Source: a virus
IMG/VR virus record: IMGVR_UViG_3300030099_007533
Coordinates: 39,547 to 103,546 of that record
Direction: 5' to 3' (one strand)
DNA: 64,000 nucleotides
Below the pieces are notes generated by a model. The model did no database searches. It had not been told where the DNA came from and saw nothing but the letters and a program-made list of their open reading frames with translations. Shown in pieces: positions 5,720 through 55,374 of this stretch. Position 1 is the first letter of the stretch. Each line of letters starts with the position of its first letter. Both the position numbers and the translations under genes were made by a program.

Positions 5720-5780
5720 GCTTCTCTCCTAAACATAATAAATAGTTTTAAAATGCAAAATAACTTTATTCAGCATTCGT

Positions 5781-31249: not shown

Positions 31250-31430
31250 ATCTAATAAACGCCTCTTCAAGTCTCTTCAACATACATCTTGACTCTGTTA
31301 CTTTAAAAAATTTGTCCCAATCTTCCTTTTCCTCATTGTTAATTGATGCCTTTAAAACTTCATCCTTATCTTTTACATAACGACGAAAATGTCGTAATAG
31401 GAAAACAATATCATCTTTATTTAATCTCAT
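31242..31430 (-). CDS. Hypothetical protein (62 aa)
   Basis: A 62-residue, highly charged, probably helical protein (KDEVLKASINNEEKEDWDKF) with one Cys. It overlaps the cupin gene by 14 nt and the zinc-ribbon gene by 8 nt, and GGGAGAATGA upstream is a good ribosome-binding site. No family is recognised. The tight coupling and clean initiation support a real gene. Confidence 0.5.
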   Translation of the reverse strand: MRLNKDDIVFLLRHFRRYVKDKDEVLKASINNEEKEDWDKFFKVTESRCMLKRLEEAFIRYA

Positions 31431-31782
31431 TCATTCTCCCATAATCATCAGAAAGTCTTACAACATCGTCTAATTCTGGAGTTGACACCTCAAACAATTC
31501 AACACACCCAAATTCAGGTGCTGTAAATCTATGAACTGTTTTTGGAGTTATTCGCCAAGATCTGCCCTCTCCAAGCTTAATTATATTACTTTCGCCGGGG
31601 GCGTCCGATAAGTCTAATAGTAAAAGCCCTTTTGATACATATATCGTCTCATCTTTTTTAACATGAAACTGTTTTGAAAGACGGTGACCAGCTTTAATGA
31701 AAAGTTTTTTCATTACATACTTATCAGTCTGAACTATTATTTCTTCATGTCCCCAAGGTTTTTCAACTATCTTCGGCGCCAT
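31417..31782 (-). CDS. Cupin, mannose-6-phosphate isomerase type II-like (121 aa)
   Basis: A single-domain cupin matching the C-terminal isomerase part of type II phosphomannose isomerases: EKPWGHEE near the start, GHRLSKQFHVKKDETIYV (metal-binding His and Glu), PKTVHRF and DDVVRLSDDYGR at the end. It would interconvert fructose-6-phosphate and mannose-6-phosphate, feeding GDP-mannose to the Gmd and Fcl enzymes encoded just upstream. The track-style start is a TTG; I prefer ATG at 31782. No ManC-type guanylyltransferase is present in the window, so the host may supply GDP-mannose. Confidence 0.78.
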   Translation of the reverse strand: MAPKIVEKPWGHEEIIVQTDKYVMKKLFIKAGHRLSKQFHVKKDETIYVSKGLLLLDLSDAPGESNIIKLGEGRSWRITPKTVHRFTAPEFGCVELFEVSTPELDDVVRLSDDYGRMNEIK

Positions 31783-31954
31783 CAAATTCTTCCATTTTAA
31801 ATGTTGGCGGGTTAGTTACCATCAATTCATCCTGCGAGTCTCCTTGAACTACAAGATTGAATTCTTGTAACACGGGAACAATGTCTGTCTCCTCTAACAA
31901 TGATTTTTGAAGAGCCATCATTATAGCCCCTAATGCTTGATCCGATAATCTCAT
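31763..31954 (-). CDS. Small conserved phage protein (63 aa)
   Basis: Starts MRLSDQALGAIMMALQKSLL and continues TDIVPVLQEFNLVVQ, ending acidic (MEEFDGAEDS). I have the impression that closely similar short proteins occur in other marine T4-like phages, but I cannot confirm this here and do not know a function. An amphipathic helix at the N-terminus is followed by a short beta segment. It overlaps the cupin start by 20 nt and lies one base from the Gmd stop. Confidence 0.55.
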   Translation of the reverse strand: MRLSDQALGAIMMALQKSLLEETDIVPVLQEFNLVVQGDSQDELMVTNPPTFKMEEFDGAEDS

Positions 31955-31955
31955 C

Positions 31956-32948
31956 TTATTTCCATCCTTTTTTTGATACTATTTTATTGAAATCATGATT
32001 ATACATATCTCTTGCCAAAGACGTAAAATCATACTTTGGTTTCCACCCCAAAACTCTTTTTGCCTTAGAACAATTTCCCAGCAAATAAGGAACTTCTTGA
32101 GGGCGAAAATACTTTTTATTTATTTTTAAATGTCTTTTTGGGTTACCCAGTTCTGCAACTGACCATACTCTCTCTAAAAACTCTTCTACCGAATGAGTTT
32201 CCCCTGTTGAAATAACATAATCATCGGGAATTTCTTGTTGCAACATTAACCACATTGCTTCTACATAATCTTTTGCGTGACCCCAATCTCTTTTTGCTGA
32301 TAAATTACCCAACTCAATGTTTTTTTGATGACCCAATCTAATATTGGCTGCTGCCAATGTTATTTTTCTTGTTACGAATGTCTCTCCACGTCGCGGAGAC
32401 TCGTGATTGAATAGAATACCGCTCGATGCGTGCAGCCCATATGAGGCGCGATAATTCCGCACTAAATTATGGGCACAAACTTTTGCACAAGCATATGGTG
32501 AAGCAGGCATTAAACGTGAAGACTCATCATATCCCTCTGGTGGGATATCTGGGTTGTCTCCAAACATCTCTGATGAGCTTGCCTGATAAAACCTGCATGA
32601 TGGGTGTACGTTTCTAATCGCCTCTAAAATCTTGTGAGTCCCCAGTGCAATGCCAGATAATGTATCCTCTGGCACCTCAAAAGACACCCTAACGTGAGAT
32701 TGTGCTGCCAAATTATAGAATTCGTCTGGTTTGTATTTTAATAGTAATCTATAAGTGGCTGATGAGTCATTTAGATCCCAATATTCCATCTTAAAATTAT
32801 CATTTTTATAAATATGATCGATTCTTTCAGTACAAATTGTAGAGGTCCTTCTCTTAAGACCTACCACATGATAACCTTTTCTTAATAATAATTCTGCTAA
32901 ATAAGAACCGTCTTGTCCTGTTATGCCACTAACAAATGCTGTTTTCAA
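31956..32948 (-). CDS. gmd: GDP-mannose 4,6-dehydratase
   Basis: A 330-residue extended short-chain dehydrogenase with the Gmd N-terminus FVSGITGQDGSYLAELL (NADP-binding G-x2-G-x2-G), SSSEMFG with the catalytic Ser/Glu (about 124-130) and PYACAKV with Tyr152 and Lys156. It converts GDP-mannose to GDP-4-keto-6-deoxymannose, the substrate of the Fcl enzyme encoded just upstream. The start is an unusual TTG at 32948 that overlaps the Fcl stop (TTGA); GGGG lies upstream, and the Rossmann strand begins at once, so no ATG can replace it. Length fits the family. Confidence 0.93.
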   Translation of the reverse strand: MKTAFVSGITGQDGSYLAELLLRKGYHVVGLKRRTSTICTERIDHIYKNDNFKMEYWDLNDSSATYRLLLKYKPDEFYNLAAQSHVRVSFEVPEDTLSGIALGTHKILEAIRNVHPSCRFYQASSSEMFGDNPDIPPEGYDESSRLMPASPYACAKVCAHNLVRNYRASYGLHASSGILFNHESPRRGETFVTRKITLAAANIRLGHQKNIELGNLSAKRDWGHAKDYVEAMWLMLQQEIPDDYVISTGETHSVEEFLERVWSVAELGNPKRHLKINKKYFRPQEVPYLLGNCSKAKRVLGWKPKYDFTSLARDMYNHDFNKIVSKKGWK

Positions 32949-33847
32949 TTTATTCCCCTAACATTCGGATAATTCATTATAAACCATTTGCAAGTCTTTT
33001 TTAAACCTTCTTTTAATGGTGTGTAGTTTTCTTTGTTCCAACCTAAGTCAAGCAGCCTTTGGTTTGAGCTTGGCTTTCTGTGCTGTCCAGATGGTTGGTC
33101 TGTTTGCCACTCTAGCTCACCATCATATCCCAGAATATCACATATCATCTCCACAACTTCTTTGATGGAATATTCATCTGTGTTGCCGATATTAATTGGC
33201 TCTGGCTCATTGTAGTTCTCCATAAGAAATAGAAGAATGCGTGCGATATCTTCTGAATAAGTGAACTCACGGAGTGGTGAGCCGTCGCCCCAGCAGAATA
33301 CAGAAGGTTCTTTATTTATTTTTGCCTCCCAAACTTTGCGGATAAGAGCGGGAATAACATGACTGTTTTCTAAGTCAAAGTTATCGTTCTCACCATAGAG
33401 GTTGTTTGGGATGGCTGTGATAAAGTTGCAGCCGTATTGTTGTCTGTATGCTCTGGACATAACGTCAACCATTCTCTTGGCGTAAGCATAGCCAAAGTTG
33501 GAGTGATGTGGTGGTCCAAGGTGTAGCTGGTCTTCTGTGAGCGGATAGTTGATATATGGAGCGTCTGGATAAACACAAGTTGATAGGAGAGACAAAACCT
33601 TGTTTGCTCCGCGAAGATGTGCGTCGTGAAGTATTTTTTGGTTTATGTTTGAGTTCTCGTAATAGAACTGCGCCATCTCTTCTGTATTTGCCTTAACACC
33701 ACCAACTTTGGCTGCGAGGTGAATGATACCTTTGCCTCGGGGGTCAAACAGCAGGCTGTGGAACTGTTCTCTATTTGGGTATTCTGCTTCTGGCAAGACT
33801 CGCTTGAACGCAGAACCTACCATACCTGTGCCGCCAGTGATAATCAT
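32945..33847 (-). CDS. fcl: GDP-L-fucose synthase
   Basis: A 300-residue SDR reading MIITGGTGMVGSAF (NADP motif), HLAAKVGGV, STCVYPD and the active-site YAYAKRM, all diagnostic of GDP-fucose synthase (epimerase-reductase). It turns the Gmd product into GDP-L-fucose. Together with Gmd and the cupin it forms a near-complete GDP-fucose branch. The gene is visibly less AT-rich than its neighbours (about half G+C in two sampled lines), consistent with later acquisition. It lies 13 nt downstream of the 278-aa unknown gene. Confidence 0.93.
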   Translation of the reverse strand: MIITGGTGMVGSAFKRVLPEAEYPNREQFHSLLFDPRGKGIIHLAAKVGGVKANTEEMAQFYYENSNINQKILHDAHLRGANKVLSLLSTCVYPDAPYINYPLTEDQLHLGPPHHSNFGYAYAKRMVDVMSRAYRQQYGCNFITAIPNNLYGENDNFDLENSHVIPALIRKVWEAKINKEPSVFCWGDGSPLREFTYSEDIARILLFLMENYNEPEPINIGNTDEYSIKEVVEMICDILGYDGELEWQTDQPSGQHRKPSSNQRLLDLGWNKENYTPLKEGLKKTCKWFIMNYPNVRGIN

Positions 33848-33860
33848 TATTTACTTTTTC

Positions 33861-34697
33861 CTACCTCTCTCTTTCTTTAATCTTATATAATAATTCAATT
33901 ATTTGATTCACAGCATTCGGGTCACGGTTGAGTGGTTTATATGTAATTTCAGAAAATTCTCCCGCCTCAATCTGTGATAGTGAGTAGTTTTTTGGTCGTA
34001 TTCCTAAATGAATCCTCCTATTTTCATACCATTCCCGACCGCCCGTTACATACTCTATTTCATTTTGATTTTCGTATATAGAAATCTTTTCTGATGAATA
34101 ACATTCATCCAGTCCCCATCCATTCATCATTCTTCCGCGAGCAGCATTGTGCGAAGGGATAAAACCATACCTGCTCATAGAATCAAAATAAGCTTTAGCC
34201 TCATCTGCCCACTCTTCTTCTAAGCCATAAAGTTTCTTGAACATCTTTCCTTTGCCAACGTGATGAGATGTTGGAAACATAATGTTTGTTTGAGTATTAT
34301 AATATCCCAAAGTATTCACTGAATAACCTTTGTAAATATCAGATAGACCTACAACATATTTTTTGGTTTTTTCAAGTTTCTCAAGCATGTCAAAAAAAGT
34401 GTAATTTAAAGGTATTTGATCTATTCCGTGGGTTATGCAAACGTCTTCTGGGAATTTTTGTGCTGCCCAAAATGGCAACCATGTAACTTGAGAAAGAGGT
34501 AAATTAAGTTGCGGTTCAGCATTTATTATGTTTTCTTTATAAACAAAATTATATTTTTCTTGAGACTCACGAGAGCCTAAAAAAACAAGAAAAGGTTCTA
34601 TCTCATAAATTTCTTTCCACACCCTTGCAACTGTATTCCAATACCCAGCATACTGCTGATTATCGTCACAGCACAAAATAACTTTATCGATTTTCAT
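33861..34697 (-). CDS. Unknown protein of the glycan locus, paralogue 1 (278 aa)
   Basis: I chose ATG at 34697, preceded by GGTGGAGAA, over an upstream in-frame TTG. The protein shares a backbone with the 274-aa protein at 38621..39445: VTWLPFWAA, PEDVCITHGIDQIPL, KYVVGLSD, GKGKMFKKL and GWGLDE. The pattern of short strands with Asp pairs is compatible with a glycosyltransferase-like fold, but I recognise no family. It sits between a 31-codon ORF and GDP-fucose synthase. Both paralogues flank remnant-bearing gaps, so duplication by cassette exchange is possible. Confidence 0.62.
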   Translation of the reverse strand: MKIDKVILCCDDNQQYAGYWNTVARVWKEIYEIEPFLVFLGSRESQEKYNFVYKENIINAEPQLNLPLSQVTWLPFWAAQKFPEDVCITHGIDQIPLNYTFFDMLEKLEKTKKYVVGLSDIYKGYSVNTLGYYNTQTNIMFPTSHHVGKGKMFKKLYGLEEEWADEAKAYFDSMSRYGFIPSHNAARGRMMNGWGLDECYSSEKISIYENQNEIEYVTGGREWYENRRIHLGIRPKNYSLSQIEAGEFSEITYKPLNRDPNAVNQIIELLYKIKERER

Positions 34698-34745
34698 TTT
34701 TTCTCCACCTTTTGTAAGTTTCAAACTTAGCTAACATCTTTTTTT

Positions 34746-34841
34746 CTAAATTTTCTTTGCTATTGTTTTAGCGATTACTATTTTAGCATAATCACTATAA
34801 AAATTAATATTTTTTGGAAAGCCATTTAAACATCTGCTCAT
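34746..34841 (-). CDS. Small ORF, possible gene remnant (31 aa)
   Basis: Begins at ATG 34841, overlapping the aminotransferase stop as ATGA, with AAGGAGAAC about 6 nt upstream. It reads [17 protein letters not shown] and ends at TAG. The strong initiation signals look like those of a real, translationally coupled gene, yet the product is only 31 residues and resembles nothing I know. I favour the 5' remnant of a gene lost by recombination; a genuine micropeptide is the alternative. Confidence 0.4.
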   Translation of the reverse strand: MSRCLNGFPKNINFYSDYAKIVIAKTIAKKI

Positions 34842-35671
34842 TGTTCGTTCTCCTTAAAAGACATGTTAGATTTCTCTTTAATTTCGTGGGCAGCGCGTTC
34901 CGCCACAGGACAGTTGCCAACAATACCCCTCTCAATATAAGCCGGCTGGTGGTACACAACGCGTGGATAATGCCCTTGCTCTGGACCTCTTAATCCTAGT
35001 TCTGCTTTGATTCCGGTCATATGAATCTTCATTTGTTCCAAAGCCATCAGGCATAATGGTTCAGCAAGTCTAAAATTAAAGCCCACGTATTTGTGATTAT
35101 ATTTACCCACTTGACCTTGATCACATATGGACCTTATTTTTTTGCCATCAAGTCTTGATCCTTTAGGGATACAAATCATTCCCCCCTCAAAGGTGGAGAT
35201 GTTTTTTGTTTTATAAAAAGAAAATGTTCCAGCGTCGGATAACATACCTGCCATTTTTCCAGAGGAATGTTCTGCTCCGAAAGCCTGCGCAGTGTCCTCT
35301 ATAACTATCAAATTGTGCTTTTTTGCTATGGTACTAATTTTTTTCATATCACATATTCTACCATAGAGGTGTACCGGAATTATCGCTTTTGTTTTTGACG
35401 TTATTGCCTGTTCTATTTTGTTGGGGTCTAACAGCAATGTTTTGGGACATATATCCACAAATACTGGTGTGGCGCCGGCAATAATTATTGCGTTAGTCGT
35501 AGCAATAAAGGTAAATGGGGTGGTGATTATCTCATCACCCGGTTTGAGATCCATGGACCACAAAGACGCTATGAGGGCAGACGTTCCATTGTTGACTGCT
35601 ATACACTCTTCCACGTCAAATGTCTTCTTTACATACTGTTCAAAAATGTCTCTTACAATTGCTGGCATCAT
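34838..35671 (-). CDS. DegT/DnrJ/StrS-type sugar aminotransferase, apparently shortened
   Basis: Family features are clear: NNGTSAL (29-33), [10 protein letters not shown] (PLP-binding Asp), and [14 protein letters not shown] with the PLP Lys156. Relatives aminate keto sugars at C3 or C4 using glutamate. This protein is 277 residues against about 370-400 in the family. After [10 protein letters not shown] (about 216) it jumps to [12 protein letters not shown] and [10 protein letters not shown], skipping about 75 residues of the small domain. It then lacks the usual final 25 residues, and the first 20-25 residues are also missing. The active-site core remains. Its ATG overlaps the acetyltransferase stop. 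It may be inactive, or a decaying or compacted enzyme. Confidence 0.72.
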
Positions 35672-36150
35672 TTTTCCCTGTGATATTTGGCAGGATTTCC
35701 AAAAACAACTACGTTAGGTGGCACATCCTTTGTAACCACAGAGCCGGCTCCAACTAAGCAATTTTCCCCAATAACATTGCCACATATTATGGTAGAGCTT
35801 GCTCCAATGCTAGCACCTTTTTTAAACAACGTTTTTCTAAAGCGCTCTTTCCAACTCCCTGTAGCTGTGGGGCTTATGTCATTTGTTGTTACTACATTAG
35901 GTCCGATAAAAACCTCGTCTTCTATTGTTACACCCTCGTATATTATTGAGTTATTTTGTATTTTTACGTTATTTCCAATGACTACATTTTTTCCTATATG
36001 AACGCCCTCACCAATTACACAATTTTTTCCTATTTTCGCACCACTCATAATATGTGAGAAAGCCCATATTTTTGTGTTATCTCCGATTTGGACGTCAGGG
36101 TCAAGTATTGAAGTCTCATGTAAAAAATATTTTTTTTCTGTTGTGGTCAT
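35668..36150 (-). CDS. Hexapeptide-repeat sugar N-acetyltransferase (WlbB/FdtC-like)
   Basis: A 160-residue left-handed beta-helix protein with repeating I-G-x4 hexapeptides ([20 protein letters not shown], then VFIGPNVV and [14 protein letters not shown]). Its start, [20 protein letters not shown], resembles amino-sugar N-acetyltransferases such as FdtC and WlbB, which act after a DegT aminotransferase; that enzyme is encoded next and overlaps it. Acetyl-CoA is the expected donor. A TATAAT box lies 6 nt before the ATG with no evident ribosome-binding site, so leaderless initiation is possible. The first ten codons recur as a remnant near 37178. Confidence 0.82.
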
Positions 36151-36162
36151 TAAACAATTATA
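36121..36162 (-). repeat. 42-nt element, copy A (TATAAT plus first codons of acetyltransferase)
   Basis: Counting by eye, 36 of 42 bases match the element at 37149..37190. The copy starts with TATAAT, has a 6-base spacer and runs into the ATG and ten codons of the acetyltransferase gene ([10 protein letters not shown]). Confidence 0.75.
36157..36162 (-). promoter_or_regulatory. Candidate -10 box TATAAT before the acetyltransferase gene
   Basis: A consensus TATAAT lies 6 nt before the ATG, which would place the transcript start at or near the ATG (leaderless mRNA). The -35 region is AT-rich with no good TTGACA. The identical placement in the second copy strengthens it, but no transcript evidence exists. 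Confidence 0.35.
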
Positions 36163-36274
36163 ATATTGGCTGTCTTAAATTTTAAATTTGTATTCCCTGT
36201 TGCGATCTTCAATGTTAAAAATCGTAAACAAAGACTCCTATTTCATTTATAGAAATTTCTTCGATAAATAAAAA
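36163..36274 (-). other. Intergenic stretch with short decayed open frames
   Basis: The 112 bases between the two sugar genes hold fragments rather than a regulatory signal I recognise. In the frame of the upstream gene, the TAG stop is followed by about 18 further codons ending VFVYDF. An overlapping frame ends NIEDRNREYKFKI just before the TATAAT. They look like coding debris, not a terminator hairpin. Confidence is low because short AT-rich frames arise by chance. Confidence 0.3.
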
Positions 36275-37126
36275 CTATTTTTTATCATGTGAATTAGATA
36301 ACATAAGAATTGCGTCGTTAAGACACGTTGATTTAATCTCCTCTGAAGAAGACTTAAAAAGTTCTTTTAAGCGATCTCCGGTTCTTGGTTTCATGAAAGA
36401 CTTTTCACGCTGTGGATAAAACACGTTGGCAATGTCAGACATTGAACGGCTATTTGGCGAATTAACAATATATCTACCGGGCTTGTTGTTCATGGTATAG
36501 ATTATTAGACCAACTGATTCTTCCAATGAAATAAAATGTCTTTCGCATTCTTCAGCAACTTTTAAAGGCTCGCTGATTGGTGTTTTTTGCCATATTTCAA
36601 AAACATTACCAACTGTTTCAACCACATTAAAAAATCTTGCAACACTTCCACCAGAACTTAAAGTCATCTTTTCAGCAATTAATTTTGAAGCACCATACAC
36701 AACCTCTGGATTATTCCCCTTGCATGTTGATGTTAAGATAAGTTTACAACCCGATGGAGATGCATCAATGAGATTCATAGTTCCTATAGTGTTGATCGAC
36801 AATGTTTTCCATATTTCTCGTTCGCCCAAAGGGGCGTGTTTTGCACCAGCTATATTTACTATAATAGTTGGTTTAAATTTATTTATTACTGAGAAAGTAT
36901 TCTGAAAATCAGTTACATCTAGATAAGTGTGGTCACCCACTATATCTGTTGTCATGACAGTTATGTTTTCATAACTATCCAACCTATTAGTTAAAGCCCT
37001 TCCAATACTTCCATCAGCGCCTGTAATTAGAATTCTTGCGCCTGCTTCTATATGCAGATTTTCCTTTTTTAGCAAACTATCATAAATTTTTCTGTTTAAA
37101 ATTTTTTCAACTTTTTCTTTTTTCAC
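36275..37126 (-). CDS. NAD(P)-dependent sugar epimerase/dehydratase, CapD-like (283 aa)
   Basis: An SDR with NAD-binding motif ILITGADGSIGRAL (about residues 31-44), VNIAGAKHAPLGE where CapD/FlaA1-type enzymes have a His-rich element, and VYGASKLIAEKM with the active-site Tyr and Lys. Likely substrate is a UDP- or dTDP-sugar. The start is GTG at 37126 with GGGAAGAG upstream; the nearby ATG at 37130 is in another frame. The GTG lies inside the 23-codon acetyltransferase-like remnant. The length of 283 residues is close to a single-domain SDR. Confidence 0.72.
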   Translation of the reverse strand: MKKEKVEKILNRKIYDSLLKKENLHIEAGARILITGADGSIGRALTNRLDSYENITVMTTDIVGDHTYLDVTDFQNTFSVINKFKPTIIVNIAGAKHAPLGEREIWKTLSINTIGTMNLIDASPSGCKLILTSTCKGNNPEVVYGASKLIAEKMTLSSGGSVARFFNVVETVGNVFEIWQKTPISEPLKVAEECERHFISLEESVGLIIYTMNNKPGRYIVNSPNSRSMSDIANVFYPQREKSFMKPRTGDRLKELFKSSSEEIKSTCLNDAILMLSNSHDKK

Positions 37127-37178
37127 TCATCTCTTCCCGTTGCTTAAATAAAAAATAATTTTTTTCTTTTGTAGTCAT
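37107..37178 (-). pseudogene. 23-codon remnant of an acetyltransferase gene start
   Basis: Reads MTTKEKNYFLFKQREEMSEK, then RKS and a stop. The first ten residues match eight of ten in the intact acetyltransferase start ([10 protein letters not shown] at 36150), and the upstream TATAAT is shared. After about ten codons identity stops and the frame merges into the start of the CapD-like gene. This is a 5' fragment left after replacement of the original gene body. Translation of a 23-residue peptide remains possible. Confidence 0.62.
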
Positions 37179-37190
37179 TAGCTAATTATA
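37149..37190 (-). repeat. 42-nt element, copy B (TATAAT plus acetyltransferase-like codons)
   Basis: Second copy of the element at 36121..36162, with six mismatches over 42 bases. Three of them fall in the spacer between TATAAT and ATG, and the rest are scattered through the codons. It extends from TATAAT through ATG to the TTTTTTA run. Confidence 0.75.
37185..37190 (-). promoter_or_regulatory. Candidate -10 box TATAAT, copy B
   Basis: TATAAT with a 6-base spacer to the remnant ATG at 37178, the same geometry as copy A. It could drive the CapD-like gene that begins about 60 bases downstream. No clear -35 hexamer is seen, so this is a weak call. Confidence 0.33.
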
Positions 37191-37227
37191 ACATTAATAA
37201 TTTTAAAATTTAAATCTCTTAAACTTT

Positions 37228-38508
37228 TTAACCAACCAACTTATTAACCAGAGATGGTGAGTTGGTTATATCTTTTATTTTTATAGACTCGGGAAAATAT
37301 TTTCCTATATTATTCATATAATCAAGCCTTGTTTGTTTAACAAAATTATTAAAATTTTTATAGTTAGCTTGAAAACGACCATTAACCATGAGGGTCCCAA
37401 AACCCCATGAATTTTTCATAACATTTAGTAAAGATTCTGATGACATTAACAAATCACATTCTTTTTGCGTTGTCTTTGCCTCCTTTAATTCACCTAATAT
37501 ATTAAAGCTAAAAGATTTGTTCAAGTCAGTTAAAAATATTATTGATGGTTTAAAATCATTAACTTTTAATGAAAACAAAGACATGTTATTATTTTTATAT
37601 ATTCTCTGTTTCATTACTTGAAATGACTTTTTAAGTTCCGTGACGCCAACAGTCTTTGTTTTAGTTAAAGACTTTTTATTGATATTGTCAAAACGGCTTC
37701 TCCAAAAACTAATGTTTCTATCATTGTGTTCCCACGGATCAGATATTTCCCATTGATCTTCTGGTTTCATTACAATTATTTTTTCTTTTGAAAAATAGTT
37801 AATAAAATCGTCAATCTTAATTGAATTATCGTTCAAATAAAAATTCTCTTCATGTGAAAAATATACAAAAGAGGCGAAGGGAATTATATACTTTGGCTTA
37901 ATTATATTAAATATTCTTTCTAAGTTATTAAAAATAATTTTTTTAGCTCGTTGGGGGGTTTTGTTGTCGCCTCTATTACCCGTCCAATTGGCAAAAGAAA
38001 ATTGAGCCAGTAATACATCAATATCACCTACTTTATTTTTTATTTCTTGTATTTCAGAGTCTGTTTTAAAACTTATACAATCGTTTAAATTTAATATTGT
38101 TTTGTTGCCAGATTTAAAACACACCCATGAATCAAAATCATAATTTAGGTCTCCACACAATTTAAAATTATTATCCATGTATAGATAACCATCATCGGGA
38201 ATTTCTAAAACATCGTATCCTCTATTTTCAAACCAATTATGTAGTTTTTTATCTTTTGGTCTACTTTGCAAAATTATTTTTTTTTGATTTGAAATTTTAT
38301 TATCACAAAACAAGCCCGGTCGAAAATGGTCTGGGTGTTCATGAGATATCCAAACATGATCATAATCGTAGTCACATTCCGATAATCGATCCTCTAATAA
38401 TGACCAACCATTATCAAATATACTTCCCTTAAACCACGGGTCACACATAACTTTTTTACTGTTATTTTCTACAATGAAGCAGGCATGATTAATAAATTTA
38501 ATTTTCAT
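37228..38508 (-). CDS. Metallo-beta-lactamase-fold hydrolase of the glycan locus (426 aa)
   Basis: The N-terminal MBL domain has INHACFIVE, CDPWFKG and the metal motif SHEHPDH (His56, His58, Asp60, His61), and later LNLNDC. This order resembles the MBL part of CMP-N-acetylneuraminate hydroxylase and UlaG-like enzymes, but no Rieske Cys/His motif is present. About 150 extra residues form the C-terminus. The substrate may be a nucleotide sugar or a sugar lactone, which is inference from position. The ATG overlaps the 20-codon remnant stop (ATGA). Confidence 0.68.
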   Translation of the reverse strand: MKIKFINHACFIVENNSKKVMCDPWFKGSIFDNGWSLLEDRLSECDYDYDHVWISHEHPDHFRPGLFCDNKISNQKKIILQSRPKDKKLHNWFENRGYDVLEIPDDGYLYMDNNFKLCGDLNYDFDSWVCFKSGNKTILNLNDCISFKTDSEIQEIKNKVGDIDVLLAQFSFANWTGNRGDNKTPQRAKKIIFNNLERIFNIIKPKYIIPFASFVYFSHEENFYLNDNSIKIDDFINYFSKEKIIVMKPEDQWEISDPWEHNDRNISFWRSRFDNINKKSLTKTKTVGVTELKKSFQVMKQRIYKNNNMSLFSLKVNDFKPSIIFLTDLNKSFSFNILGELKEAKTTQKECDLLMSSESLLNVMKNSWGFGTLMVNGRFQANYKNFNNFVKQTRLDYMNNIGKYFPESIKIKDITNSPSLVNKLVG

Positions 38509-38567
38509 TTATAATAACTTATCCCCGCCGCGCCGCAGCCAATAATCCCAACACGGTATTTTAACAT
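38505..38567 (-). pseudogene. 20-codon remnant of a Rossmann (Gfo/Idh/MocA-like) oxidoreductase start
   Basis: Opens at ATG 38567 with GAGG about nine bases upstream and reads MLKYRVGIIGCGAAGISYYK before a TGA that overlaps the next ATG. VGIIGCGAAG is a textbook dinucleotide-binding G-x-G-x2-G strand-turn-helix, and this N-terminal form is typical of Gfo/Idh/MocA sugar oxidoreductases. Those enzymes often accompany WlbB-like acetyltransferases in amino-sugar pathways. The remainder of the gene is absent, so I call it a 5' remnant. Confidence 0.58.
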
Positions 38568-38620
38568 TTTATAGATCCTCTATTCGTATTCCCTTTATTA
38601 ACGTTCTAAAACTTATAAAA

Positions 38621-39445: not shown

Positions 39446-39496
39446 TATTTATACCTATCTTGTTTTAAATCAATAATATACGTTATAATGGTTGCT

Positions 39497-40405: not shown

Positions 40406-40407
40406 TA

Positions 40408-41058: not shown

Positions 41059-41060
41059 TC

Positions 41061-41822: not shown

Positions 41823-41827
41823 TATTC

Positions 41828-42451: not shown

Positions 42452-42472
42452 GTTTTTTCTCTATACAGGCGT

Positions 42473-43168: not shown

Positions 43169-43170
43169 TT

Positions 43171-43815: not shown

Positions 43816-43823
43816 TATACTTT

Positions 43824-45204: not shown

Positions 45205-45207
45205 TTT

Positions 45208-48347: not shown

Positions 48348-48820
48348 CTCTTTAAATTAATGTAGTATGGAGAATTGTCGTTAATGCTGCTCATCAATGC
48401 AGCTTTTACTTGTTTAGTGTCTTGTGGGTGAATCATTTTTATGTTTTCAAAGCACGACATAACTTTTTTATCTTCTTCAGCCCAGTGCGAAAATCCAAGA
48501 TAACCGTAATCTCTATCTCTACCGCCGCCGATAAGTTTTACTGGAACTTGTTCGTGATCAATATAATTTCTAATAACTTCAAACGGACGATATATCAGGA
48601 AAGGTGTTATGGAATATACAAATGGTATTTTTCCCTCCATTGCCATACCTACAGCAGCACCTAACAATAGTTGTTCTGAAGAACCAACGTTCCAAAACCT
48701 GTTGGGGTAGTCGATCCTAATCCTATCCCACAGTCCGTAACCTAAATCTCCTGTTAATAGGATAATATTTTCATTTTTGCCCATTTCTCTATGAAGAAGT
48801 TTACTAAACTCTTTTCTCAT
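48344..48820 (-). CDS. Transketolase subunit, pyrimidine-binding (C-terminal) domain (158 aa)
   Basis: A short protein matching the Pyr domain of split transketolases: MRKEFSKLLHREM, LLTGDLGYG, FWNVGSSEQLLLGAAVGMAM (TPP-activating Glu), FSHWAEEDKKVM and IHPQDTKQV. The third transketolase domain is absent, as in some split forms. It overlaps the TPP-domain subunit by 17 nt. Two-subunit transketolases in sugar loci may transfer a two-carbon unit to make a branched or chain-altered sugar; here that is inference. Confidence 0.8.
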   Translation of the reverse strand: MRKEFSKLLHREMGKNENIILLTGDLGYGLWDRIRIDYPNRFWNVGSSEQLLLGAAVGMAMEGKIPFVYSITPFLIYRPFEVIRNYIDHEQVPVKLIGGGRDRDYGYLGFSHWAEEDKKVMSCFENIKMIHPQDTKQVKAALMSSINDNSPYYINLKR

Positions 48821-49439
48821 TTATTTCCCTTTTTGCCAGTTGGTAGTCTTCTTCTGACATTATATGATAATGTGCATTTAACCCGCTTAAAAATTCAAAT
48901 TGGTTTACACTTGTGTAAACCAAATTTATTTCAGGTAAAAATGTTTTTAACCTTTTTGATAAATAATCAGTATCCACGGCATCATAAGCAGCATACCCAT
49001 TAATGTTTACATATACTTTAATGTTTTTAAGATTATTCTCGTAAATAAATTTTAAACCTTCCCAAATAGACCCCTCAGCACACTCTCCATCGCTTATTAA
49101 ACAATATACCTCTCTACTTGGATCTGCCATTGCCCTGCCAATAGCAACAAGAAGACCCATACCAAGACTCCCAGTTGAGCAGAAAAGGTGATTTTCTTCA
49201 TCTCTGTGGGGGTGACCACCATGCTTTAGAAACAAGTCATTCGCATCAATCCCCTTATACTTTTCAATTACTGCGTACAGAGCGACGGCGCAATGACCAG
49301 ACGATAAAATAAAAATATCATCACTTTTCATTTCTGAATAAATTTTATCTATTATTCCCACACTTGAAAAATAAGAACCAAGGTGTGATAGTTTATTTTT
49401 GTAACATATATCGAGTATTCTTTCTTTTAGTCTTTCCAT
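48804..49439 (-). CDS. Transketolase subunit, TPP-binding (N-terminal) domain (211 aa)
   Basis: TPP-domain features: GSYFSSVGIIDKIY, LSSGHCAVALYAVIE, HGGHPHRDEENH, STGSLGMGLLVAIG and SDGECAEGSIWEG then VNIN, the thiamine-diphosphate and Mg binding run. I chose ATG at 49439 (MERLKERI); the track start lies further upstream in the GT2 gene. It overlaps that gene by 13 nt and the Pyr subunit by 17 nt. Together the two subunits form one enzyme. Confidence 0.82.
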   Translation of the reverse strand: MERLKERILDICYKNKLSHLGSYFSSVGIIDKIYSEMKSDDIFILSSGHCAVALYAVIEKYKGIDANDLFLKHGGHPHRDEENHLFCSTGSLGMGLLVAIGRAMADPSREVYCLISDGECAEGSIWEGLKFIYENNLKNIKVYVNINGYAAYDAVDTDYLSKRLKTFLPEINLVYTSVNQFEFLSGLNAHYHIMSEEDYQLAKREINEKRV

Positions 49440-50155
49440 CTTTTTTGCCACTCCTCTCTTATTATCATATCGTATTTTGTCTCTTCGCGATGCATACCCC
49501 ATGTACTCTGTTGTTCATTCCACCTATAATAATATCCCAGCCACCGTGGAAACGGATAAATAAAGATGTTTTGTTCTGCCATGGAAAAATAAAGATCATA
49601 ATCTGACGCACCTAAAAACATTTCAGAACGCCAGTTAATTTTTCCGTCGTCATATAGTGTTTTTTTTAAGACTATTGACGGAGTTGTAACTGGACATCCA
49701 CGGAACAACTTTTCTTTAAATTCTTTTAAATTTTTATATTGATGTCTGACAATATTTACAACCTGCGTGTCGGATTCTCTAACACAGTGTAAGGGGCTTT
49801 GCATAACAGAAATTTTGTCTGTCTTTGATAAGATATCAACAACATTTTGAACATAATTTTTGTCAATATAATCATCTGATCCAAGTATGGTAAAATAATC
49901 CCCTGATGCTATCCTAAGCCCCTCTTCTACAGGTTCTTGATACGAATGCCGGTAAATATTTTTCGCTTTGGACATTATTAACCGTGGAAATTTAACTTTA
50001 ATTTTTTCCACTATTTTTACTGAGCTATCAACGCTTTCGTTGTCAACAAAGATAACTTCTAAATTTTTATAAGTTTGTTCAAGCGCTGATAGGACGCACT
50101 GTTCAATCCATTTTTCACTATTATAGCACGGGATTATTATGGTAAACTTAATCAT
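49427..50155 (-). CDS. Family 2 glycosyltransferase (242 aa)
   Basis: Strong GT2 motifs: TIIIPCYNSEKWIEQCVLSA, VIFVDNESVDSS, and ILGSDDYIDKNYV with D-D for metal binding. The C-terminus contains LGASDYDLYFSMAEQ, an ED-like acceptor motif. Its 3' end overlaps the transketolase start. Acceptor and donor are unknown. Confidence 0.85.
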   Translation of the reverse strand: MIKFTIIIPCYNSEKWIEQCVLSALEQTYKNLEVIFVDNESVDSSVKIVEKIKVKFPRLIMSKAKNIYRHSYQEPVEEGLRIASGDYFTILGSDDYIDKNYVQNVVDILSKTDKISVMQSPLHCVRESDTQVVNIVRHQYKNLKEFKEKLFRGCPVTTPSIVLKKTLYDDGKINWRSEMFLGASDYDLYFSMAEQNIFIYPFPRWLGYYYRWNEQQSTWGMHREETKYDMIIREEWQKRWKD

Positions 50156-50156
50156 T

Positions 50157-51059
50157 TTATAAACTTAATAATTGTTTAACACGATTCACATATGTGTGAT
50201 TATTATAAACAAATTTTATATTTTTCTGTTTTAACAGATCTCTTTCTACTGGGTCCATTTTAACATATTTCTGTACCTCATTTAACATTTCTACCGGTGT
50301 TTTCACCAGCGGTACATTTGAAAAATATTTTTTTATCTGATGTATGTCATCAACTACCAGCAGACCATTTAAGCCAAGACTTTTAAAAGTCCTCTCGTTA
50401 GTATCTAACCCCAACTCTTGTTGGTATGCGTCATGAAGATTGATAGCAACTTTGCTGTTAGAGATTAATAAAGATTCAAACTCATGCGACACGCCTCTGT
50501 TTACAAAAAAGCCACACTTTAATTTTGAATTAATGAAAGGTTTCATCCACGAAGTTATTATTCTTCTTTTTTCATCAAAGCCATTGTTAGCCCAGCCGCC
50601 AACAAAACAGACATCATATTCAAATTTCTTATTTGTTTGTTTTTTATAATTAATATTATCGAAGGCAAGAGGGACAGTTTCAACAACACCCCATTCAGAA
50701 AAATATTCTGTTTGATCTGTCTCACAAAAAGTCCATTTTACAACATTTTGCAAAACTGATAATTCACTAATTAATTTTTTTGGCTTATCAAAAACAAAAT
50801 TTGGGTGACGACCCCAGTGACGTGCAAAATGGGTTGGTCTAACAAATAAAAATGTTTTTCTTGACCTCTTAAAAATTTCTATTGCTTGAGAATCTAAATC
50901 TGGATCTATTGCCATCAAGTAGAAATCTTCACCTTCTATCTCTGATAGATTTGTATAATACTGAGTATCATAACCCAAGCTTTGCCAAGCTGAGTTAAAC
51001 CCCTCGTATATCCACTTGCCCGCGTACAAAGGATGATATTTAACATAAACTTTTTTCAT
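50157..51059 (-). CDS. CgeB-like glycosyltransferase (300 aa)
   Basis: The C-terminal half has VAINLHDAYQQELGLDTNERTFKSLGLNGLLVVD, the E-R-x-F-x2-L-G-x2-G-x3-V pattern of the GT-B Glyco_trans_1_2/CgeB group. The N-terminal half carries Rossmann-like strands with DPDLDSQAIEIF. It overlaps the next CgeB-like gene by 20 nt, so the two adjacent genes may have arisen by duplication. Acceptor unknown. Confidence 0.75.
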   Translation of the reverse strand: MKKVYVKYHPLYAGKWIYEGFNSAWQSLGYDTQYYTNLSEIEGEDFYLMAIDPDLDSQAIEIFKRSRKTFLFVRPTHFARHWGRHPNFVFDKPKKLISELSVLQNVVKWTFCETDQTEYFSEWGVVETVPLAFDNINYKKQTNKKFEYDVCFVGGWANNGFDEKRRIITSWMKPFINSKLKCGFFVNRGVSHEFESLLISNSKVAINLHDAYQQELGLDTNERTFKSLGLNGLLVVDDIHQIKKYFSNVPLVKTPVEMLNEVQKYVKMDPVERDLLKQKNIKFVYNNHTYVNRVKQLLSL

Positions 51060-51969
51060 TTACAAAATCCAAAATCTGCTTCAAACGAACTCTTGTGTCA
51101 TGATCTTTTAAAAATCTTTTATAACCATTATCAGCTATTTTATTCATAACATTTTCATTTTTCAATAAAAATGTTATTTTTTTAAATGCCTCATCAGGGC
51201 TTTTAAAACAAATAATCTCGTTATCAATTTTAAAATGCCTCTCCAAACCCGGTGCGTACTCAGTGACTAAGAGAGTTTTTCCAGCAATAACCTCCGCCAT
51301 CCTCCCTTTAACTTGAAGAACTGGTGGTCTTGCATTAAAATTTTTACTAAAGTTTATCCCTATTTTTGATCTTAAAATTACATTTTTCATTTCATCAGTT
51401 GTTATCCCTGAGAAATGTTGAACATTGATTCCTTGATTTCTTAAATAAGAAATAATCTTATGCCTGTCTGAATGCAGTTGACCACAAAAGCTCACATCAA
51501 TATCCTTTTCAACATTCTGTTCAAATAACTCAGAGTCTGCGTGCCAAAAACCAGATATTACGTTTTTATACCCTATCTTTTTGTATTTTTCAACACAGTA
51601 TTCCTCTGGTGTTGAACAAAAATGAAAAAACCAACAAACTTTACTTGAAAAGTTATTGAATCTCCAAGCATCATCGCAAAACCAGTTGAATGTCTTTGTT
51701 AAATTATTTTTTGTTATATATTTAATATCATCCCAAGGCTCATAAGGGGTTAGTCTTGGGTCTCCTGTCATACAACAAAACAAAAGATCGGGTTTTTCCT
51801 CTTTAACCAAATCAATTAACGCTTGGCTTTGTTTTTCAACGGTGTCATAAAAAATAGTTTCATGCCCCAATTTAATAAAATTTTTATAAACATAATCATA
51901 AGAAATTGGATCAATAAAACGACCGTTTTTTGATGGTAAAGTTTTATTTGCTACAATTACAATCTTCAT
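51040..51969 (-). CDS. CgeB-like glycosyltransferase (309 aa)
   Basis: GT-B pattern: KIVIVANKTLPSKNGRFIDP, LLFCCMTGDPR, then VSFCGQLHSDRHKII and IGINFSKNF, followed by QVKGRMAEVIAGKTLLVTE with a nucleotide-binding Glu-rich segment. The closest family I can name is CgeB/Glyco_trans_1_2. It overlaps both neighbours, and is coupled to the GT4-like gene by ATGA. Confidence 0.78.
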   Translation of the reverse strand: MKIVIVANKTLPSKNGRFIDPISYDYVYKNFIKLGHETIFYDTVEKQSQALIDLVKEEKPDLLFCCMTGDPRLTPYEPWDDIKYITKNNLTKTFNWFCDDAWRFNNFSSKVCWFFHFCSTPEEYCVEKYKKIGYKNVISGFWHADSELFEQNVEKDIDVSFCGQLHSDRHKIISYLRNQGINVQHFSGITTDEMKNVILRSKIGINFSKNFNARPPVLQVKGRMAEVIAGKTLLVTEYAPGLERHFKIDNEIICFKSPDEAFKKITFLLKNENVMNKIADNGYKRFLKDHDTRVRLKQILDFVNEKSLC

Positions 51970-52823
51970 TCACTTTTTTCACTCATTACTGCAATAATTT
52001 CATCAACAACTTTTTTTCTCACAGATCTCATTTCTGATATTATTTCATCACCAGATTTTTTAAACCAATCCTCATATTTTGCGCCAACAAGCTGATTTGT
52101 TATGACTGTACAACCCATCATTTTTGCCTCTACGCATATCCTACTCAAAGTTTCAGGACTCCGAGGCAAGAACACCAGCCCTTTGTTTTTTGAAATTTTT
52201 TCTAAAAAATTGTAATAATTTTCGTCTTCTATTAGTTCGTAATTGTAATCATTCTTTTCACAAAATTTTATGGTTCCGTTTGTATTTTTACTATCCATCA
52301 CACAATTTAATATTGAATATGATTTTGTTTTTTTGTTTTTTGAAAGCTCTTTAATTTTTTCTAAATCTTCATCTGACCATAAATTTCCAGAAACATTAAA
52401 TGTGTTATTTAATTCAAGGTTGCTTTTAATAATTTTCTCTTGAAAACTACTTTGACAAATAACTCTCAAAGCATTTGTATAAAGTTTTTTATTTATAATT
52501 TTTCTTTTTGGCGCTTGGAAATTTGTATGAAAAGCTGGGTTCCTGCTTGCAAGATATTTGTGATCATGCTCATAAAGAATGTAATCGCCCTCATCTGCGA
52601 TTTGTTCAAGTAAACTTTTTCTAAGAAAGAGAAAATTTGATATAATCTTTAAATCAAAATAATTTTTTTTTAAAAAATCTGCACTTACTGACCGACAGTT
52701 AATAAAGCTTACATCATATCCAGCTTTTTTAAGCGAGTCTATTATTTCCTTGTCGTTATATTCTGCACCACCAAATTTAAGCTCACTTAAATGAAAATCG
52801 GAAATATAAAGTATTTTTTTCAT
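51966..52823 (-). CDS. Family 4-like glycosyltransferase (285 aa)
   Basis: GT-B architecture: ILYISDFHLSELKFGGAEYND at the start (the GGAE acceptor-side loop), then SYSILNCVMDSKNTNGTIKF and LVFLPRSPETLSRICVEAKMMGC near the C-terminus, the E-x7-E motif of GT4. It is shorter than usual GT4 enzymes (about 350-400). It overlaps neighbours by 4 nt on each side. Sugar specificity is unknown. Confidence 0.78.
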   Translation of the reverse strand: MKKILYISDFHLSELKFGGAEYNDKEIIDSLKKAGYDVSFINCRSVSADFLKKNYFDLKIISNFLFLRKSLLEQIADEGDYILYEHDHKYLASRNPAFHTNFQAPKRKIINKKLYTNALRVICQSSFQEKIIKSNLELNNTFNVSGNLWSDEDLEKIKELSKNKKTKSYSILNCVMDSKNTNGTIKFCEKNDYNYELIEDENYYNFLEKISKNKGLVFLPRSPETLSRICVEAKMMGCTVITNQLVGAKYEDWFKKSGDEIISEMRSVRKKVVDEIIAVMSEKSE

Positions 52824-54106
52824 TCAATTTCTTCAATAACGCTTAAAGATTTAAGCCACTCATCAACATTATATTCATCGTCATCATAAAAAGCCTCTAT
52901 AAAAGATTTGTAAATTTTTTCCTCTGTAAAAGTTTCTAAGACATGCTTTTTCAACTTCTTAGATTGACCTAAATAAAGTCCATAATTTTCGTAACACTGT
53001 CTTAAAGCAATTTGGCATGATCCCCAATTTGGAAATGCCCATTGGCTTTCAGGCTGTAAGACACTATCCCATACCGCCTCTCTTTGAATTGGCTTTAAAT
53101 CATAAGACACCTTTGTAAAATGTGGTCTTAATTTTTCTTTTCCTTTCTTATCCTTCTTTGGTGCGTAGAGAAAATCTTTTTGTCCACCCCAGTCATGTGT
53201 TATAACAGGCAGACCAACAGCGGCAGCTTCAAACAATGGAAGCCCATACCCCTCGCCGTGACCAAAGTTTATCATTGCCTTAATTTTTGGATGGGTATAA
53301 AGCGAGCTTAATTCTTCTTTGGTCATATAACCATGCAACAAATGAATTGAGCAAGTTCTATCTGGATAATGATTCAAAATTTGATTAATTCTTTTTTTAG
53401 TTTGTGCAAAATCAATTGTAGAACCGTCTTTAATAGATACCTTTAAAACCAGACCTACTTCTTCATCCTTAAATTCATCAATAAAATATTTTATAGTCCC
53501 CTCAATATTTTTTCTTGGTCCCCATTGTGCCACACAAAGAAAGTTAAAATCATTCTTTAATTTAAGAGTATCATGTACGCAATCTGATGGTTTAAGAAAT
53601 TCTTTCTCAACCGGATAATTAACTACGTCAACCGGCTTCTCCAAGCTTAATTTTACGTCTGCACCACTTGGATCCTTTGCGTCCCAAAGAGCGTTAACAA
53701 AACTTTGTTTTGAGAATTCAGATGGCACGATTATTTTATCAACAAAAAGATTTGCAGCCTCCAGCCAGTGAGGAGAGACCCTATCTGATTCAATCCCTGC
53801 ACAAACGCCAATATTTTCTGGGGCTGCTCGGTACTGTTTCCACTCAGATGGAATTGTAACCATTATTGTTGTATCAAAAGGCAAACGTTGTTTCATATGA
53901 GAATACGTTTTATTTATCAAATTATCTAATTCTTCTCTTTCACTGGTTTCCTCTGCTATCCAGCTTGTTGAACCCCAATTAACCGGATTAATAAAAATAT
54001 CAAATAAGTCTTCTCTACTTTTTAAAGCACGATACACCATTCTGGCGTGCTCACCATAACCAGATTGAGTTAGGATTGGTCCCACTAATAATACTTTCTT
54101 TTTCAT
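52820..54106 (-). CDS. Family 4 glycosyltransferase (428 aa)
   Basis: Typical GT4: VLLVGPILTQSGYGEHARMVY, then LCVAQWGPRKNIEGTIKYF (sugar-nucleotide loop), MINFGHGEGYGLPLFEAAAVGLPVITHDWGG (E-x7-E with glycine-rich loop). Full-length enzyme. Retaining transfer to a growing glycan is the usual reaction. It overlaps its two neighbours by 4 nt each. AT content is similar to the genes around it. Confidence 0.86.
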   Translation of the reverse strand: MKKKVLLVGPILTQSGYGEHARMVYRALKSREDLFDIFINPVNWGSTSWIAEETSEREELDNLINKTYSHMKQRLPFDTTIMVTIPSEWKQYRAAPENIGVCAGIESDRVSPHWLEAANLFVDKIIVPSEFSKQSFVNALWDAKDPSGADVKLSLEKPVDVVNYPVEKEFLKPSDCVHDTLKLKNDFNFLCVAQWGPRKNIEGTIKYFIDEFKDEEVGLVLKVSIKDGSTIDFAQTKKRINQILNHYPDRTCSIHLLHGYMTKEELSSLYTHPKIKAMINFGHGEGYGLPLFEAAAVGLPVITHDWGGQKDFLYAPKKDKKGKEKLRPHFTKVSYDLKPIQREAVWDSVLQPESQWAFPNWGSCQIALRQCYENYGLYLGQSKKLKKHVLETFTEEKIYKSFIEAFYDDDEYNVDEWLKSLSVIEEIE

Positions 54107-55374
54107 AGTTCTTCACTTCTCCAGTTTTTGTAGCTCTTTCTTTGATCCCACGAGCCGTGTTTTTCAACAACGTTAGTCATCAATTCTACCCACGACTTAT
54201 TGAATTCTTCAAAACTAAAATTATTAATAGCGTGTTGTCTTGCCAATAAGCCTAATTTAGAGCGCTCTTCTTTTTCCATGTCATACATTTTTTGCAATGC
54301 CTTCAAAAAATCTTCTTTATTGATTCTGTCTTCCATAACATATGGAACTAACTGTGAGCCTACCACTTGTTGTGAGCAGGGTTCAATCACAACACCAAAT
54401 TCATTTACACCGTCAGTTATCTGATCTTGGAGTCCACCTGTTCTTACAGCCACAGCGGGCGTCTCACAAGCAAGAGATTCTAAACAAGATAAGCCAAATC
54501 CTTCCGCATCTGATATGTTGACTGTAATATCCGCCATGTTATAAAGTGTTGCCATCTTTTGTGCATCAATTTTATCTCTTGAAAACAAAACTTGCCCCTT
54601 ATTCAAGCCCAGATCCTCTGTTATCTGCATTAAATCAGGACCATTTGGATCAGTCGGTTCTGTGTGCATAAGTAATACTGCCTTATCATCTCCGTTCCTT
54701 TCAAGAAATTCTTTAAACCAAAATATAAGAGTACCGCTGTGTTTGCGACGAGCATTTCTGCTATTAAAAAGAATAACAAAACGATCAGCAAGATTTCTAC
54801 CATCAGGACCTTTGTTCTCTTTCCTTAGTTCTTCTATTACTTCGTCTTCAAGCTTTTTAAAAACCTCAGTATTGACTGCATGTGGAATGTAATGGGACTC
54901 AACATTGGGTGCAACCGTTTTTACAATATCATCTGTAAGCTTTGAAATTGTTGCAATCACATCATTACTCTCATAAAACTTTTTATTAAACTTTGGGTAT
55001 GGATAATTGTCCCAAACATGATAGTAAACCATGGGGATATTTCTTCTGATTTCATTATCCATTTCCCACAACCAGCCCCAAAATCGCGGGTCTGTCATAA
55101 ACCAAAGTATATCAGGCTTTTCTTTCCATATAATAGAACGAAGTAATTCTTTTGTGCCAAATTGATCCACTGGTAAAATTTTCCATCTTTCGCCCCACTC
55201 TTCGGTGTGAATAAGGTTATGATGAGGGTGTTTTACTGCTCCGCCAAGCGAAAAAACATCAAACTTGTCACTTTTAAGAAGTGCTTCAATTACATATTTT
55301 GTTTGATTAGCAACTCCAGATGTGCTCAACGGCATGTCACCTAAAGTGAGCACTTTAATTCTTTTTTGTTCCAT
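54103..55374 (-). CDS. Family 4 glycosyltransferase (423 aa)
   Basis: GT4 features: LTLGDMPLSTSGVANQTKYVI, VILFNSRNARRKHSG and ITVNISDAEGFGLSCLESLACETPAVAVRTGGL, with the C-terminal E-x7-E motif. It is the first glycan gene in the direction of transcription, 5 nt downstream of the nuclease gene. The TTCAT-type start and upstream AAAAAAGAAT are unremarkable. The acceptor is unknown. Confidence 0.86.
   Translation of the reverse strand: MEQKRIKVLTLGDMPLSTSGVANQTKYVIEALLKSDKFDVFSLGGAVKHPHHNLIHTEEWGERWKILPVDQFGTKELLRSIIWKEKPDILWFMTDPRFWGWLWEMDNEIRRNIPMVYYHVWDNYPYPKFNKKFYESNDVIATISKLTDDIVKTVAPNVESHYIPHAVNTEVFKKLEDEVIEELRKENKGPDGRNLADRFVILFNSRNARRKHSGTLIFWFKEFLERNGDDKAVLLMHTEPTDPNGPDLMQITEDLGLNKGQVLFSRDKIDAQKMATLYNMADITVNISDAEGFGLSCLESLACETPAVAVRTGGLQDQITDGVNEFGVVIEPCSQQVVGSQLVPYVMEDRINKEDFLKALQKMYDMEKEERSKLGLLARQHAINNFSFEEFNKSWVELMTNVVEKHGSWDQRKSYKNWRSEEL

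Follow-up and report, generated by a model that had tools for sequence, protein, structure and literature searches.

The DNA examined here is a stretch of 64,000 nucleotides (the window) at positions 39547-103546 of the linear, 103,546-bp viral record IMGVR_UViG_3300030099_007533. At window positions 31417-55374, 28 minus-strand open reading frames (ORFs) cover 97.6% of the region, 21 of the 27 junctions being overlaps or gaps of <=25 bp, and nearly every one of these genes is for glycan synthesis, most of them by Pfam/NCBIfam family (Table 1). The locus consists of a fixed anchor of two GT4-family glycosyltransferase genes (GT4b and GT4a) and an exchangeable, variable island, both at one genome position. 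Uncultured marine phages of a widespread group share this arrangement. An earlier note on this DNA had described about 28 consecutive co-oriented glycan genes in a myovirus genome; gene number, orientation and phage type are upheld, although the record is a fragment and not a genome. Its interpretation, partly supported overall, overlooked the main structure of anchor pair plus exchangeable island.

The same note had counted at least seven glycosyltransferases, and Pfam recognises exactly seven (two GT4, two Glyco_trans_1_2 and three GT2), with the gene named unkD a likely further one. Three family-less ORFs (33861-34724, 38621-39445 and 42473-43168) resemble GT-A glycosyltransferases. Structural models of 33861-34724 and 42473-43168 returned GT-A enzymes as their top matches at mean pLDDT values of only 59 and 70, and 38621-39445 is a homologue of 33861-34724, suggesting with modest confidence that all three adopt this fold. 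The remaining families comprise sugar-nucleotide dehydratases and reductases, two DegT-fold enzymes, a split transketolase and the decorating enzymes, namely a formyltransferase, a hexapeptide acyltransferase, a PIG-L deacetylase and an FkbM methyltransferase. Methyltransferases and deacetylases had been noted in the plural; the FkbM and PIG-L genes are clear, but a second methyltransferase is weak and the second deacetylase candidate (40408-41058) has no Pfam match and is NodB-like only by eye. No convincing solved relative was found for the MBL-fold protein of the locus.

Judged by its gp23 gene, the phage is a Far-T4-like myovirus. In a gp23 tree of 14 sequences it is sister to a group of RM378, immuto, Mel-JY01 and the metagenomic phage LR756508 (support 100/98), apart from the T-even phages and the T4-like cyanophages, and the rest of the record carries T4-type replication and structural genes. 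Of this core, gp23 and terminase were detected by tblastn and gp55 by a weak PHROG match; tail sheath, UvsX and the gp41 helicase were assigned from ORF reading alone. No near-identical DNA was found among phage records. Far-T4 phages are reported to be common in aquatic environments (PMC7198788) and to form a high-turnover group in seawater (PMC13037479), and marine members have been tied to Flavobacteriales or other Bacteroidetes (PMC7198788, PMC13037479).

A fixed anchor pair and an exchangeable island

Queried with the gp55-like gene, the search gave 80 relatives, nearly all of which, where enough sequence was available, carry glycan genes upstream of gp55. GT4b lies 2.2-25.2 kb upstream of gp55 in 35 of 40 gp55-selected records, and the other five contigs reach only 11-20 kb upstream of gp55, not far enough to tell. 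When the PD-(D/E)XK nuclease gene (PDDEXK) was used as the query, GT4b was the immediately adjacent gene in 13/13 loci, and a GT4b profile found a match in 45 of 50 relative records. The gene order in relatives runs PhoH, two to three small genes, PDDEXK, GT4b, GT4a, (unkD), variable genes, often gmd/fcl/cupin, two small genes and gp55. GT4b and GT4a are also adjacent in the cultured phages immuto, Mel-JY01 and RM378, the only kinds of phage among 50,697 phage records to return a GT4a match; the hosts of these pair-bearing phages are Flavobacterium, Microcystis and Rhodothermus. The EX7E residues are invariant in an alignment of 19 GT4b sequences that includes RM378 and immuto, and the pair is kept in phages with almost no island (G005/L010, L083, L174 and RM378).

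Island size in the gp55-selected records ranges from about 0.4 to 23 kb, with a median of about 15 kb, which places the 21.5-kb island of the window phage near the top of the range without making it exceptional. The cyanophages P-SSM2 and S-SSM7 have also long been known to carry large lipopolysaccharide (LPS) clusters (PMC3037559, PMC2984593), so the view that phages with this many pathway genes are unusual does not hold. Most genes of the variable middle have 12 or fewer homologues in viral loci, DegT being the exception.

Islands are swapped whole between phages. The relatives G042 and G052 are 96-97% identical at the nucleotide level over a stretch that starts upstream of PhoH and runs as far as locus position 12451, within the 3′ end of GT4a, with 97.2% as the value up to that end, whereas their islands (15.0 vs 7.7 kb) have no detectable similarity; past the island, identity returns to 98% over 197 bp and then 91-92% through gp55 and gp5. 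Since G043 is identical to G042, and G051 is 99.6% identical to G052, each island version is present in two assemblies, and one faulty assembly does not account for the difference. Few or no island genes are shared in several further pairs with 79-84% core identity.

The measurable island genes are under purifying selection, with dN/dS values of 0.04-0.12 for most; the exceptions are TkC (0.75, at a dS of only 0.011) and TkN and GT1_2a (about 0.2). Two gaps, 38509-38620 and 37127-37227, hold short gene-start remnants, MLKYRVGIIGCGAAGISYY (oxidoreductase-like by eye) and MTTKEKNYFLFKQREEM (resembling the start of the hexapeptide transferase), which we regard as traces of gene turnover within the island. 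At the junction of island and gp55, the two small genes at 30721-31270 have 41-62% amino acid identity in close relatives, vs 81-89% for gp55. No description of the fixed anchor pair, the exchangeable island or the virus-type split-transketolase cassette described below was found in freely searchable papers, subscription papers and preprints being outside that search.

Table 1. Features of the glycan locus and its boundaries (window coordinates)
Feature	Position	Strand	Basis or remark
GT4b, anchor glycosyltransferase 1, opens the locus	54103-55374	-	Pfam Glycos_transf_1; EX7E motif conserved (E291/E299)
GT4a, anchor glycosyltransferase 2, 4 bp overlap with GT4b	52820-54106	-	Pfam
unkD, frequent third gene, probable glycosyltransferase	51966-52823	-	85 matches in viral loci; no Pfam family
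GT1_2b glycosyltransferase	51040-51969	-	Pfam
GT1_2a glycosyltransferase	50157-51059	-	Pfam
GT2c glycosyltransferase	49427-50155	-	Pfam
TkN, ThDP-binding half of split transketolase-like enzyme	48804-49502	-	Pfam; start probably Met22
TkC, pyrimidine-binding half of split transketolase	48344-48820	-	Pfam Transket_pyr; Transketolase_C domain not found
RmlD-like sugar reductase, cassette member	47511-48347	-	Pfam; 99% amino acid identity to copy in contig 3300010151_007864
RfbH, NDP-4-keto-6-deoxyglucose 3-dehydrase	46155-47510	-	NCBIfam NF011936, 465 bits vs cut-off 423; alignment to PDB 3bcx
RmlB-type NDP-glucose 4,6-dehydratase, cassette member	45208-46158	-	NCBIfam TIGR01181, 291 bits, below cut-off 365
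Variable middle (positions given for all three parts together), part 1: FkbM, GT2b, PIG-L, unkC (GT-A fold), methyltransferase, GT2a, NodB-like?	33861-45204	-	Pfam/NCBIfam, folds
Variable middle, part 2: formyltransferase, unkA2 and unkA (GT-A fold), MBL-fold protein, PseB-like dehydratase	33861-45204	-	
Variable middle, part 3: NeuD/PglD-like acetyltransferase, compact DegT aminotransferase	33861-45204	-	
GDP-L-fucose end: GDP-fucose synthase-like, GDP-mannose 4,6-dehydratase, PMI-type cupin	31417-33847	-	NCBIfam/Pfam; common just upstream of gp55 in relatives
PD-(D/E)XK nuclease, left boundary, conserved chassis	55380-56156	-	Pfam
PhoH-like ATPase, chassis left of island	57210-58526	-	Conserved beside PDDEXK in relatives; PhoH identity by eye
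Right boundary: two small fast-evolving genes and gp55-like late sigma factor	30035-31270	-	Weak PHROG 234 match; order conserved in relatives

Elsewhere in the window, an adenylosuccinate synthetase at 59437-60447 is short (336 aa) and PurA-like by profile score; a PurZ (Z-genome) identity is unsupported (PurA 274 bits vs PurZ 124, PurZ cut-off 300). Laminin_G_3 lectin-like domains occur in a 2,944-aa protein (11013-19847) and its neighbour (19880-22174), both likely tail-fibre or adhesin proteins. No tRNA genes were found.

Predicted sugars and the split-transketolase cassette

Three sugar branches had been read from the locus. The GDP-fucose branch, described as near-complete, is represented by a gmd gene above its equivalog cut-off and a phosphomannose isomerase (PMI)-type cupin, but the fcl-like gene scores below its cut-off and neither a mannose-1-P guanylyltransferase nor a phosphomannomutase was found in the locus. 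The genes expected for an amino-sugar branch with acetylation and formylation are present (PseB-like, compact DegT, hexapeptide transferase and formyltransferase), but all score below equivalog cut-offs. In the RmlB/RfbH/transketolase branch RfbH passes its equivalog cut-off and RmlB does not. RfbH retains, in an alignment, the catalytic His of the E1 dehydrase (3bcx) in place of Lys, together with the Fe-S Cys cluster, and the second DegT enzyme keeps the aminotransferase Lys region. This compact aminotransferase (34838-35671, 277 aa) has about 70 C-terminal-domain residues fewer; the idea that it is a decayed gene was rejected, as the compact form is 76% conserved in a second phage (L117:14993-15811). 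The glycan of the window phage probably includes L-fucose and an N-acetylated or N-formylated 4-amino-4,6-dideoxyhexose, as predicted from these genes.

C4-branched 3,6-dideoxy sugars such as yersiniose are made on the principle of combining RfbH with a thiamine diphosphate (ThDP) enzyme and a reductase, and branching by a split-gene transketolase has been proposed for miharamycin (PMC12247030, PMC4753412 for the former; PMC12247030 for the latter). The ThDP enzyme of the window is a split transketolase of two short subunits, TkN and TkC, whose family matches are to transketolases and not to the YerE-type ThDP flavoprotein. Together these genes suggest that the cassette product is probably a yersiniose-like 3,6-dideoxyhexose with a two-carbon branch at C4.

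The cassette TkN-TkC-RmlD-RfbH-RmlB (about 49.3-45.2 kb) is mostly 97-100% identical in nucleotide sequence to contig 3300010151_007864, dipping once, to 82-88% within RmlB, whereas the flanks on both sides are mostly 60-84% identical to that contig. Correspondingly, dS is 0.01-0.3 within the cassette and mostly saturated or >0.8 outside it. Up to 260 viral stretches carry the virus-type TkN family, the best 80 at 59-94% identity, and in these 80 loci TkC is adjacent in 76, and the reductase is near in 76, RmlB in 71 and RfbH in 67. Among 84,980 species genomes, just five contigs have the family at >=57% identity, and no sequenced phage record exceeds about 33%. Three of the five contigs show the gene order of the phages and probably represent viral sequence binned with the wrong genome; a recent host origin of TkN is unsupported, these three being its closest genome matches. 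The contigs L192, L193 and L194, in a 'Thaumarchaeota' and a 'Maricaulis' metagenome-assembled genome, carry the Far-T4 glycan gene order and are probably viral too, placed by mis-binning among the species-representative genomes.

Absent membrane steps and the probable acceptor

The absence of Wzx and Wzy had been reported for the locus, with a suggestion to look for Wzx, Wzy or a ligase elsewhere in the genome. The whole 103.5-kb record has no match to PF01943 (Wzx) or PF00303 (the thymidylate-synthase/dCMP-hydroxymethylase family), but because it is a fragment, absences in this record alone prove little and the relatives supply the test. Among 50 relatives, several of them 180-195 kb long, none matched Wzx, Wzy_C (PF04932) or the WbaP-type family (PF02397), with bacterial controls matched and other initiating and ABC-transport families unsearched. 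PF00303 was likewise absent from all 50, again with bacterial controls matched. PF01943 had no match in immuto, Mel-JY01, RM378 or S-SSM7. None of 1,023 distinct island ORFs from 143 loci, and none of 542 ORFs around TkN loci, has at least three hydrophobic segments, a count that gives six in Wzy and nine in Wzx of E. coli K-12. A search for the TET/JBP family matched no control. These absences favour a cytoplasm-built glycan on a phage protein over an O-antigen or a glycosylated hydroxymethyl-pyrimidine in the DNA. The earlier preference for short glycans, or for sugars on phage macromolecules, over a polymer is borne out.

The motif ACTATTTA occurs ten times on the gene strand and never on the opposite strand; seven copies fall between genes, and six are followed at 25-34 bp by a start codon, in most cases that of a structural-region gene, with gp23-region and tail sheath genes among them (window position 5746; positions 2347, 19208, 22011, 22349, 25449 and 27080 of the L002/L003 record). 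It is a candidate late promoter of the phage and is missing from the island, which is therefore not obviously a late operon. The T4 late-promoter consensus TATAAATA occurs no more often than by chance, and sigma-70-like sites, only about two standard deviations above shuffles, were left unused as timing evidence.

Our preferred reading, to which we give about an even chance, is that the anchor pair and island of this Far-T4-like phage glycosylate an acceptor of the phage's own, most likely a virion protein. GT4b and GT4a, as conserved cytoplasmic glycosyltransferases, would start the glycan on this acceptor, and the island behind them would provide nucleotide sugars and more glycosyltransferases with which the glycan is lengthened and decorated. 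Recombination in the conserved genes on either side would pass islands between phages and leave close relatives with different glycans, as in bacterial serotypes. The retention of the pair beside an empty island, and its occurrence in phages of both Bacteroidota and Cyanobacteria, point to a phage-own acceptor; since the phages that have the pair infect Flavobacterium, Microcystis and Rhodothermus, the LPS of any one host is unlikely as the acceptor. Virion glycosylation is reported for mycobacteriophages (Freeman et al. 2023, as cited in PMC12619734), and cytosolic, virus-encoded glycosylation of capsid proteins with virus GMD/GMER and aminotransferase is known from chloroviruses and mimivirus (PMC4691112). 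A more specific proposal, which we consider possible rather than probable, is that Far-T4 phages come in serotypes: GT4b and GT4a would build a universal stub on a virion protein, replacement of the whole island would switch the outer glycan of phages that otherwise barely differ, and one circulating cassette, whose split transketolase is found at >=57% identity nearly exclusively in uncultured viruses, would make a branched dideoxy sugar, perhaps one made largely by viruses.

Several points weigh against a phage-own acceptor. We infer the acceptor, as well as the sugars and any benefit (e.g. evading recognition by the host or avoiding adsorption to debris), and glycosyltransferases of the cytoplasm could just as well contribute to lipid-linked glycans of the host, which the host then flips. 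The motif ACTATTTA, found before structural genes, was not found in the island. The count of hydrophobic segments is a simple hydropathy measure, the contigs are fragments and some enzymes of the locus score below equivalog cut-offs. Selection is measurable for part of the island, with many dS values saturated and most middle genes lacking a close homologue.

In the main rival reading, the locus would instead remodel a host surface glycan, with phage sugars added to host lipid-linked intermediates or LPS, a host flippase and ligase finishing the structure, and the new surface blocking superinfecting phages or grazers. Such a role has been suggested in print for the LPS clusters of P-SSM2 (PMC2984593), and it fits the gene types, which match those of O-antigen clusters, and the island gaps, whose sites are TATAAT-like and not late-promoter-like and hence compatible with early expression; receptor-directed exclusion would select for swapping too, and host flippases could act on phage-built intermediates. 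We nevertheless hold it to be unlikely, since enzymes that initiate, flip, polymerise or ligate at the membrane turned up in neither the 50 relatives nor the 1,023 ORFs, the same anchor pair is used by phages whose hosts belong to different phyla and differ in LPS, and phages with empty islands retain the pair.

A glycan on the phage DNA, guarding against restriction and with island swaps tracking glycan-specific nucleases, appears improbable. In T4 the glycosyltransferase genes are early or middle, the window island comes after PhoH, ClpP, PurA and the PDDEXK nuclease and not after structural genes, and the cultured relative immuto modifies its DNA by annotation. In immuto (L175, 1-3000), DpdA and QueF annotations near the DNA polymerase gene indicate probable 7-deazaguanine DNA modification. 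The absence of PF00303, however, removes the usual hydroxymethyl handle and weakens DNA as the acceptor that had been suggested, other base chemistries being possible, and islands this large and varied, with sialic-acid type, sulfotransferase and pyruvyl transferase genes, are more typical of surface glycans. The island could also be non-functional 'stuffer DNA' filling the head, as was raised for cyanophage LPS clusters (PMC3037559), and the gene remnants in its gaps do indicate turnover. This reading is already disfavoured and strikes us as barely credible: all 28 frames are open with coupled junctions, catalytic residues are preserved, dN/dS is low for most measurable genes and the locus holds one position across the lineage.

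Comparison with known systems

Since 2010 it has been an open question whether the large 'LPS' clusters in marine T4-like phages have a function or are stuffer DNA, and whether they target host or phage (PMC3037559, PMC2984593). The anchor pair, the phages with empty islands, the purifying selection, the lack of membrane steps and the exchange of whole islands speak for function and favour a phage-own acceptor, and the cultured immuto and RM378 make the question directly testable. If this reading is true, the serotype-like locus would add a layer of phage diversity that is invisible to core-gene comparison.

The nearest parallels among marine T4-like phages are the LPS clusters of the cyanophages P-SSM2, S-SSM7 and S-SM2, which likewise bring together many genes for sugar nucleotides and glycosyltransferases. 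The literature places one of the P-SSM2 clusters near phoH (PMC3037559), a gene also found close to the window locus, and S-SSM7 also has no Wzx. The window phage differs in its lineage by the gp23 tree, in a GT4a without a match in cyanophages of that family, and in a locus that keeps its place between PDDEXK and gp55 almost throughout the lineage and is swapped as a unit. Among cultured Far-T4 phages, immuto and Mel-JY01 have the homologous GT4b-GT4a pair followed by glycan genes near a PDDEXK gene, but islands in this group are shorter or absent and carry other cargo; Mel-JY01 has guaB between PDDEXK and the pair, and RM378 has the bare pair with no island.

Chloroviruses and mimivirus encode a comparable set of GMD/GMER, dehydratase, aminotransferase, acetyltransferase and glycosyltransferases (PMC4691112). 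The likeness is one of logic and not of membership: these are viruses of eukaryotes in which the virion glycan is proven, with no homologous anchor pair shown, whereas that of the window phage is predicted. The yersiniose pathway (RfbG/RfbH, YerE, YerF) shares with the cassette an RfbH-type 3-dehydrase, a ThDP enzyme and a reductase, but the ThDP enzyme of the window is a split transketolase and not the decarboxylase-type YerE, its dehydratase is RmlB-like and its product is predicted. Bacterial O-antigen (rfb) serotype loci, too, hold a variable glycan cassette that is replaced through recombination between conserved flanks. The window locus departs from them in having no Wzx/Wzy and no initiating transferase that we could find, and in lying in a viral genome with two fixed GT4 genes at its edge.

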